From contig JALOPH010000003.1 of the NCBI GenBank assembly GCA_025453995.1, forward strand, positions 1-41,520: a DNA stretch of 41,520 nucleotides, read 5' to 3'. The stretch comes from Desulfobacterales bacterium (lineage in GTDB: Bacteria; Desulfobacterota; Desulfobacteria; Desulfobacterales; Desulfosalsimonadaceae). Made by a program: the position numbers and the translations under genes. Shown piece after piece: positions 31,074-33,330 of the stretch. The notes beneath the pieces were generated by a model. The model saw nothing but the letters and a program-made list of their open reading frames with translations. It had not been told where the DNA came from and made no database searches. The number at the start of each line of letters is the position of its first letter. The stretch's first letter is position 1.

Positions 31074-31221
31074 ATACCAAGTTGCGATCAAAAATTTACT
31101 AAAATCTCCCCTGCCCCCTCTTTACTAAAAGAGGGGAATTAAAATCCCCCTTTTTAAAGGGGGATATAGGGGGATTTCAAGTGCCAGGATCATAAATATA
31201 TATTTGAATCCGATTTGGTAT
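31074..31221. mobile_element. MITE-like element with terminal inverted repeats
   Basis: About 148 bases with inverted ends ATACCAA (31074-31080) and TTGGTAT (31215-31221). Eight bases inside each end is CAAA (31089) and its complement TTTG (31203), placed symmetrically. The interior has two hairpins, CCCCTCTTT/AAAGAGGGG (31115-31136) and ATCCCCCTTT/AAAGGGGGAT (31144-31165), and a third arm AGGGGGATTT (31168-31177) that can also pair with 31142-31151. No open frame or transposase. Together with flanks this fills the 31020-31283 gap. No certain target duplication is visible. Confidence 0.6.
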
Positions 31222-31283
31222 AAAAATCTGTTGAAAGCAGGCGGATATTTCGCCTCTTTGGGGGAGGCAAACAGAAAATAAAT

Positions 31284-32357
31284 TTAAGCGGCTACGATTT
31301 CGGCAAGCAGTTTTTCGAGATTCGCTTTCATATAAAACCAGTTCCCCGTTGCTGAAGAAACACCGATGAGCCGGATTCGGGGATATGTTTTTTTTGAAGG
31401 ATTTAAAATAATAATAATACTATCCTGTTTATGCAGGGTGACAGCCTCTCCTTTATCAATATGGATATATTCATAGGTTTTATCGGCAGAAGAAAAAAGT
31501 TTTTTCAAATCGCCTGCAAGTCGGTTTAAGTTTATGGTCGCATCCTTTTGATCCGATACCAGAATTTCCCCCTGATCACCGATCACCGCCAAAGCCTGAT
31601 AGCCTTTTATTTTGTTGAACAACCTGATATGCCTATCAAGAACCATCGAAAGGGATTCTTTGGTCATCAGAATTGCGTTAAGCCCTTTATCCCTCTTTTG
31701 ATCCCAACTTGCTCCGACAATGTCCATCAAGTGGGTTTTAATGCGCGTCCGGGTGCGACATCGCGGCAATTCATTTAATTTAAATAAAATGCGGTCCCAT
31801 TGGACAATTTCCATGGCGGCCGCCTCTCCTGTTAATTTACTGAAATGGGCGTCAATGAGGTTTCCGTTGTTAAAATAAAGATATCCTTTCCCCTTTTTTT
31901 TGGACGTTATTTCCATACGGCATGTTTTTTGTAAAATTTCGACCAGCGGCAGAAGTGTCCCCATAGACATCCCATTTATATTGTTGCCTTCGTCCCTGAG
32001 ATTCAACCCCACAAGAACGGCGGATGCCAGCATGCTGATGGTAAAGGGCTTTTCAAGATGATAGAGGAATGACTGCTGCGCCATTTGTTTTTTGTACCAG
32101 GGTTTGCCATGATCCGTCATGATGATACAGGGAATATTGGGGCGCTTTTGAGTCATAAAGGATAACAGATCCAGCGCGTCTATATCGGGAGGAAAAACTT
32201 CAGTTACAAAGATTGAAAAATTCTTCTTTTCAAAAAGCTCTATCGCTTCTTTTCCGGATGTGGCAGTTTCCACCTCAAACTGACGCATTTTATTGAGCCC
32301 GGATTTAAGGGAATGAACATACGCGGCATCTCCGCTTAAGATAAGAACCTTGTCCAT
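31284..32357 (-). CDS. Degenerate receiver + PATAN (DUF4388) + roadblock-like protein
   Basis: 357 aa in three parts. Residues 3-118 fold like a response-regulator receiver: the switch Thr81 and Lys103 (LEKPF) remain, but the phosphoacceptor Asp is Glu53 (FVTEVFPPDID) and the N-terminal acidic pair is missing, so phosphorylation is unlikely. Residues 127-215 match the PATAN/DUF4388 domain (MGTLLPLVEILQKTCRMEI, GYLYFNNGNLIDA). Residues about 228-350 look like a roadblock/LC7 domain (ALAVIGDQGEILVSDQKDA), the fold of MglB-type GTPase regulators. The MglA-like GTPase 129 bases upstream on the same strand is the likely partner. The roadblock call is the least certain part. Confidence 0.78.
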   Translation of the reverse strand: MDKVLILSGDAAYVHSLKSGLNKMRQFEVETATSGKEAIELFEKKNFSIFVTEVFPPDIDALDLLSFMTQKRPNIPCIIMTDHGKPWYKKQMAQQSFLYHLEKPFTISMLASAVLVGLNLRDEGNNINGMSMGTLLPLVEILQKTCRMEITSKKKGKGYLYFNNGNLIDAHFSKLTGEAAAMEIVQWDRILFKLNELPRCRTRTRIKTHLMDIVGASWDQKRDKGLNAILMTKESLSMVLDRHIRLFNKIKGYQALAVIGDQGEILVSDQKDATINLNRLAGDLKKLFSSADKTYEYIHIDKGEAVTLHKQDSIIIILNPSKKTYPRIRLIGVSSATGNWFYMKANLEKLLAEIVAA

Positions 32358-32486
32358 GATAAACCCTTTATTTGGTCAATCTGATAAATTATTTTAAATT
32401 ATATCTCAATACTCATCAAAAAACAAATTATTAAATAACGGTCTTACTCAATGGCAAATTTCGATCGTCTGTGCGTTTGGCTGTTT

Positions 32487-33128
32487 TCAGTTTGCCCGAG
32501 TGATGGAATCAAAGTTCAGATGCTTCAGGGTCAGCTTGATGATGTCCTGAAGAGATCTTAAAATGTTTTTGCCCGTAACTGAGCTGCTCTCATTACATGG
32601 CGTTGTGTTTAAGATATGCCAGTTGTCACCCAGGCAGTTCCTGAGGTCGTCCAAGATATAGTCAGGGGAAAGGATCGGGATGCCTTCCTGGGCGAGATCG
32701 ACTTTGTTGAACTGGATGACCAGTGGTATGGTTGATATTTTTTTGTTGTACAAATGAAGGGTTTGAATCAGATTTTCAAAGGATTGAATGTTGTTTTTTC
32801 GCCTCAGAATCATTGAGTCCGCCACAAAAACAATGCCGTCCACCCCTCTTAAAATGAGCTTGCGGAGCGGCTCCAGTCTCTCCTGGCCGGGCACTGAATA
32901 AAGCTGTATTCGGATATCCAATCCTTTTATCCTGCCGAGGTTGAGCGGATAGAAGTCGAAAAAAAGGGTCCGTTCCCGATTCCCCGTCAGCTTAATCATT
33001 TTAACTTTGCTGCTATTGGCAAGCTTTTTCTGAATATACTCCAGGCTGCTGGTCTTGCCGCCTCGCCCGGGTCCGTAGTAAACGATTTTCAGCTGGATTT
33101 CATTTTTTTTTACATTAATCAGCGCCAT
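32487..33128 (-). CDS. MglA-type small Ras-like GTPase
   Basis: 213 aa. MglA proteins are polarity and motility switches in Myxococcus and relatives. The N-terminus MALINVKKNEIQLKIVYYG is the MglA form. P-loop GPGRGGKTSS lies at 19-28; the switch segment TLFFDFYPL at 54-62 is characteristic of MglA; the G3 region is SVPGQE (78-83); the G4 motif is NKVD (141-144). The start is taken at the ATG at 33128; a frame from TTG at 33161 adds 11 unlike residues. It may work with the roadblock-bearing protein downstream. About 245 bases upstream to 33373 hold no convincing gene. Confidence 0.9.
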   Translation of the reverse strand: MALINVKKNEIQLKIVYYGPGRGGKTSSLEYIQKKLANSSKVKMIKLTGNRERTLFFDFYPLNLGRIKGLDIRIQLYSVPGQERLEPLRKLILRGVDGIVFVADSMILRRKNNIQSFENLIQTLHLYNKKISTIPLVIQFNKVDLAQEGIPILSPDYILDDLRNCLGDNWHILNTTPCNESSSVTGKNILRSLQDIIKLTLKHLNFDSITRAN

Positions 33129-33330
33129 CAGTTTAAACAGGACTTTCTGAAAAGATTGCAAATTACTAAAATCTAAAGGGTCATTATTGCATTGCCATGA
33201 AGATTAAAATTAGAAGAACTTTAATGGAAAAAAAGAATAAAGGCAAGTATCTATTTTGTAAAAAAACGACATGCGAAATCAAAAGCCCGCATAAGCCTTA
33301 TTTATTACAACCTACAGAATTCATTGATAG

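Follow-up and report, generated by a model that had tools for sequence, protein, structure and literature searches.

A candidate secondary MglA module in a Desulfobacterales genome: an MglA-type GTPase beside a pseudo-receiver–PATAN–roadblock protein

MglA-type GTPases are usually served by separate GAP (MglB) and GEF (RomR/RomX) proteins. In the 41,520 nucleotides of Desulfobacterales DNA analyzed here (the window, contig C168 of a 3.65-Mb genome that is 92% complete), a gene for such a GTPase, P0002, lies next to a gene for a protein, P0001, that joins a receiver without its phosphoacceptor Asp to a PATAN domain and a roadblock-like end. The locus raises the question of whether P0001 is the GTPase's own regulator and what the Glu at its acceptor position contributes. 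The features concerned are as follows.

32487..33128, minus strand: MglA-type small GTPase P0002, 213 aa
31284..32357, minus strand: pseudo-receiver–PATAN–roadblock protein P0001, 357 aa
32004..32357, minus strand: pseudo-receiver domain, aa 1–118 of P0001 (Pfam, family alignment)
32199..32201, minus strand: codon 53 (GAA, Glu), the phosphoacceptor position of P0001
31707..31982, minus strand: PATAN (DUF4388) domain, about aa 126–217 of P0001 (Pfam over cut-off; structure model)
31290..31661, minus strand: Roadblock/LC7-fold domain, aa 233–356 of P0001 (AlphaFold, Foldseek)
31265..33256, minus strand: two-gene block homologous to G001:C31/JABZFM010000019.1

The GTPase has the intact MglA-type motifs that an initial annotation, made from the sequence alone, had ascribed to it. 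These include GPGRGGKT (G1), Arg53/Thr54, SVPGQ82 (G3), and NKVD, and the protein matches Myxococcus xanthus MglA (MxMglA) in the PDB with an E-value of 3e-41, residues 1–147 aligning without gaps. Its start is the ATG at 33128, which aligns with residue 1 of MxMglA; the TTG at 33161 is merely the earliest possible start of the frame. The same alignment finds Phe56, Phe57, and Phe59 of beta2 intact, along with Asp58. In MxMglA, Arg53, Gln82, Thr54, Asp58, and Phe56/57/59 act in catalysis, Mg binding, and roadblock docking (PMC6785124). The intrinsic Arg finger of Group 1 is present as Arg53, which adjoins the G2 Thr54. By the published motifs that define Group 1 MglA (Wuichet and Sogaard-Andersen 2014, PMC4316618), P0002 classifies from its sequence as Group-1-like, with SVPGQ for TVPGQ, a single conservative change found in all three GTPases of its subfamily. 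In a tree with only Group 1 references, P0002 nests with the resident Desulfobacterales MglA (support 99/96), next to which the subfamily's three GTPases sit on a long branch as a clade with full support. Their switch II reads [EDV]RL[EQ]PLRK, whereas the resident MglA has VKYNATRR. No MglB gene was found in the window neighborhood. An MglB neighbor is not universal, and 59 orphan MglA homologs have been reported (PMC4316618).

The roadblock end of P0001 is recognized by fold. Pfam matches over cut-off identify the receiver (Response_reg, E 2e-13) and PATAN (DUF4388, E 8e-7) domains. No roadblock was detected in P0001 by Pfam, NCBIfam, phmmer, or PDB sequence searches; sub-threshold Robl_LC7 matches occur in 6 of 22 relatives (best E 3e-4). 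In an AlphaFold model built from a 35-sequence alignment, residues 233–356 adopt the alpha-2beta-alpha-3beta-alpha roadblock topology. The model has a whole-protein pTM of 0.60 and a mean pLDDT of 84.5, with values mostly of 66–92 in the roadblock domain and weak regions around residues 81–100, in the receiver, and 221–230. The top solved roadblock in a Foldseek search is MxMglB (6hjm; target TM ~0.80, E 1.7e-7), and MglA-bound MglB chains are among the matches. The PATAN domain and roadblock-like end first proposed for this protein are therefore borne out, the former by Pfam and the latter by the predicted fold and its closest solved roadblock. As modeled, the protein ends one residue past the last core helix and so lacks the extra C-terminal helix of MglB, which in MxMglB serves nucleotide exchange (PMC6785124). 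An hhalign comparison of the family's roadblock end with the resident MglB reached a probability of 1%, a weak and shallow alignment that gives no sequence link. The C-terminal domain is a roadblock by its modeled fold, and any identity with MglB is putative.

The receiver departs from the canonical form at more than the acceptor. The Glu53 of the initial annotation is confirmed (codon GAA), and the acidic pair, whose loss had been overlooked, is replaced by Ser8 and Gly9; Thr81 and Lys103 are kept, and Phe105 sits at K+2. Among 54 family members, position 53 is D in 32, G in 6, S in 5, N in 4, E in 3, A in 3, and T in 1. Position 9, the equivalent of CheY Asp13 and the second acidic Mg-ligand, is Asp in none of the 54, while Lys103 is kept in 53 and Thr81 in 25. 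A receiver that lacks one or more of the five residues D, DD, T, and K counts as a pseudo-receiver (PMC12632262), and all 54 members therefore belong to this class, position 9 never being Asp. From these residues, the P0001 receiver is probably not phosphorylated in the usual way. The receiver helix-4 region (residues 82–97, window 32067–32114) is poorly predicted and contains a KPWF motif that, unlike the situation in ordinary receivers, is almost invariant across the family; the region may form a binding surface.

A tree of receiver plus PATAN places the three Glu53 proteins in one clade (support 90): P0001, its counterpart in a second genome (G001/L034/L100), and that of Desulfococcus sp. 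Ww167 (L106, genome G047). The clade sits in a fully supported group of six with three Asp53 proteins. Conservation of Glu53 among homologs thus holds for all three members of the subclade and fails in the nearest relatives, L104 and L035, which have Asp53 at receiver identities of 72% and 69% to P0001. On the tree, the acceptor Asp is lost in at least eight changes, and Glu53 appears as a single, conserved change within a family that often loses its acceptor. The three Asp53 relatives do not end in a roadblock, and the one scanned, L035, carries an AAA ATPase (AAA_22). Other C-terminal parts follow the receiver and PATAN in L035, L104, L107, and L037 (59–72% receiver identity to P0001), whose sequences indicate that the output domain was swapped relative to P0001.

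The initial annotation suggested that Glu53 may mimic phospho-Asp and so hold the receiver permanently 'on', in which state it could gate the roadblock regulator. Against this stand the missing acidic pair, the presence of S, A, G, N, or T at the acceptor site of relatives, the family-wide absence of the second acidic Asp, and the Phe at K+2, a residue that favors the inactive form of CheY. Mimicry has also been disproved for some pseudo-receivers, but Glu is what most often replaces the acceptor in Asp-less receivers, where contact with the conserved Thr and Lys can bring partial activation (PMC12632262), and P0001 keeps both residues. The closest precedent is RomR D53E, an active mimic in M. 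xanthus of a receiver that acts on MglA (PMC3441718), and Glu53 is fixed within the window's subclade. Given the lack of a CheY Asp13 equivalent and the variety of residues at position 53, loss of phosphorylation appears general in the family, and so Glu53 need not mimic phosphate. We regard the mimicry step as improbable; it can be accommodated within the reading of the two genes as a secondary MglA module that is developed below.

Evidence that the two genes belong together comes from a second genus. In the window, P0001 follows the GTPase after 129 bp, both on the minus strand, and in G001 the spacing is 146 bp. The block that the two genomes have in common starts some 130 bp upstream of the GTPase and runs to shortly after the end of P0001, with 76% DNA identity across 2018 bp, and its flanks are unrelated on both sides. 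Gene order, strand, and spacing are therefore kept in two genera. Between the two genomes, dN/dS is 0.19 for P0001 (0.12 for the receiver, 0.24 for the roadblock) and 0.16 for the GTPase, at a dS of 0.7–0.9 that leaves synonymous sites near-saturated. With this common block, chance adjacency of the pair seems less likely. A repeat, AAAGGGGGATATAGGGGGATTT, lies at window 31156–31177, just outside the block edge. It has 54 copies in the genome with at most two mismatches, compared with 0 for a reversed control, and is possibly a mobile or palindromic repeat. A promoter and terminator scan found no excess over shuffled sequence.

The pairing is also rare. An MglA-like gene within 6 kb was found for 2 of 54 family members, those of the window and G001, a count that is a lower bound given short flanks in 12 of the others. 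L106 has the left neighbors found in G001 (MFS, rubrerythrin, methyltransferase), and the 382-bp gap beside its Glu53 protein holds no GTPase; just two resident MglA copies were seen in this 76%-complete genome. A link between Glu53 and GTPase pairing, considered as a candidate, is ruled out by the same locus. Elsewhere, genome G044 encodes a 58% identical GTPase without a P0001-type partner beside it. In G050:C207, a 3' remnant of a window-type GTPase (L095, 6391–6648) is fused in frame to unrelated sequence, with no receiver–PATAN–roadblock gene next to it, and reads as a decayed copy. The association of the GTPase with P0001 is conserved but rare and separable. The pairing described at the outset stands as adjacency, conserved as a block in two genomes, and does not extend to every Glu53 protein.

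These exceptions are the basis for an explanation in which the neighborhood is weak or due to chance, P0001 acts independently of the adjoining GTPase, as seems true of its more than 50 relatives, and the resident MglB serves the GTPase. The 52 of 54 family members without a nearby mglA, the P0001 orthologue standing alone at the syntenic site in G047, and the solitary GTPase of G044 all fit this account. The block's preservation in two genomic settings that are unrelated, with purifying selection on its genes, does not, and the divergent switch II of the subfamily suggests a changed set of partners. On balance we find this explanation doubtful, while giving it some weight.

The rest of the genome shows what other MglA machinery is at hand. 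Three MglA-type GTPases are encoded, one in the main mglB-mglA cluster on contig C110, one at C10/C38, and one in the window, and the canonical mglB at C110 is the only gene in the whole genome over the Robl_LC7 cut-off. The C110 cluster (L033) has the conserved order mglB, mglA, a coiled protein, a HAMP/Zn-ribbon sensor, a receiver–PATAN protein whose receiver is canonical (DDD, Asp), another small roadblock-like protein (the second of the cluster), and a PilB-like ATPase carrying MshEN and TPR. Clusters of this type also occur in L069, L070, and other family genomes, and they probably serve to control type IV pili or secretion through MglA. The C110 receiver–PATAN protein could not be identified as a roadblock fusion, its C-terminal part giving no match to the roadblock family of the window. 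The third mglA-type gene is split between the end of L096 and the start of L097 (contigs C10 and C38, which overlap at the break). Next to it are genes for a PATAN protein and a PilZ-like protein; the latter, and the cyclic-nucleotide-binding-like repeats in the PATAN protein, were recognized by eye.

The second roadblock-like protein at C110 is the best hhalign match of the family's roadblock end (probability 65%). P0001 could, like MglC, pair through its roadblock with this protein or with the resident MglB and tune them instead of the GTPase. Roadblock domains form mixed complexes, and MglC binds MglB and RomR (PMC12719032). The hhalign match spans just 48 columns, however, and the P0001 gene adjoins the GTPase and not mglB, making such a role unlikely.

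Our preferred reading, to which we give a probability of roughly 45%, is that the two genes make up a secondary MglA module in which P0001 is the GTPase's own roadblock-type regulator. The GTPase would have arisen from the resident Desulfobacterales MglA by duplication and divergence, and P0001, from a lineage-specific pseudo-receiver–PATAN–roadblock family, would serve as its regulator. A roadblock dimer is expected to dock on the beta2 Phe face of the GTPase and alter its nucleotide state. The pseudo-receiver would work through protein contacts, either dimerization or partner binding, with Glu53 presumably fixed in a receiver that is not phosphorylated. Through PATAN, the complex could connect to machinery downstream, for which ATPases of type IV pili or of secretion are the most plausible candidates. 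The domain makeup, the folds, the motifs, the joint conservation of the two genes, and the selection on them are observed; direct binding, GAP or GEF action, and the output are what we infer.

Several lines of evidence argue for this module. The roadblock fold is best matched by MxMglB, with MglA-bound chains included, and the GTPase keeps its catalytic, Mg-binding, and roadblock-docking residues. One over-cut-off Robl_LC7 gene has to be set beside three mglA-type GTPases. The pair has kept its order, strand, and spacing under purifying selection in two genera with unrelated flanks, and the main mglBA cluster likewise encodes a receiver–PATAN protein and a PilB-like ATPase. In cyanobacteria, there is a connection between PATAN response regulators and type IV pili, and PixE is reported to act via PilB1 (PMC7690835). 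The module is weakened by the scarcity of a nearby mglA in the family, by L106 without a GTPase beside it and the G044 GTPase and G050 remnant without an adjoining partner, and by the missing sequence-level link to MglB and the absence of its C-terminal exchange helix. A bolder version, in which one polypeptide uniting PATAN with a receiver like that of RomR and a roadblock like that of MglB took over from MglB as the regulator dedicated to an MglA paralogue, and native Glu53 sets a phosphorylation-independent state, appears improbable by comparison.

Features of several known systems recur at this locus. With the Group 1 MglA/MglB pairs of M. xanthus and Thermus thermophilus, P0002 has in common the GTPase motifs, the intrinsic Arg finger, and the Phe beta2 face, and the C-terminal domain of P0001 has the roadblock fold of MglB. 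Unlike those systems, P0002 has no adjoining MglB, SVPGQ for TVPGQ, and another switch II, and the roadblock of P0001 is fused behind receiver and PATAN, with no detectable MglB sequence similarity and no extra C-terminal helix. As in RomR/RomX–MglA, a receiver-bearing protein is linked to MglA and position 53 is at issue. P0001 differs in having PATAN and a roadblock, of which RomR has neither, in place of the long unstructured linker and Glu-rich C-terminal helix that are hallmarks of RomR, and in having a native Glu while missing the acidic pair.

The combination of receiver and PATAN is that of PatA, PixE, PixG, and the deltaproteobacterial receiver–PATAN proteins near mglA/mglB, to which P0001 adds a C-terminal roadblock and a receiver that is probably not phosphorylatable in the usual way. 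An association in genomes between PATAN proteins and both Group 1 mglA and mglB has been described (PMC4316618) and, for mglA, is credited there to Makarova et al. 2006. In the searchable literature, we found no earlier report of a receiver–PATAN–roadblock protein beside an mglA. Other pseudo-receivers and aspartate-less receivers are likewise devoid of the acidic pair and the acceptor Asp and keep Thr and Lys, but their output is DNA binding, whereas that of P0001 is a roadblock domain.

The P0001–GTPase pair varies, in a form seldom seen, a theme already known from motility control, with the partner relation putative. If the relation is true, a receiver–roadblock fusion beside its own MglA would unite GAP/GEF control in one protein. 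To our knowledge, the phosphomimic idea for pseudo-receivers has been raised and rarely tested, and the natural D-to-E change would make it accessible to a defined GTPase assay. That the family has lost the acceptor repeatedly offers a useful series for understanding how receivers give up phosphorylation.
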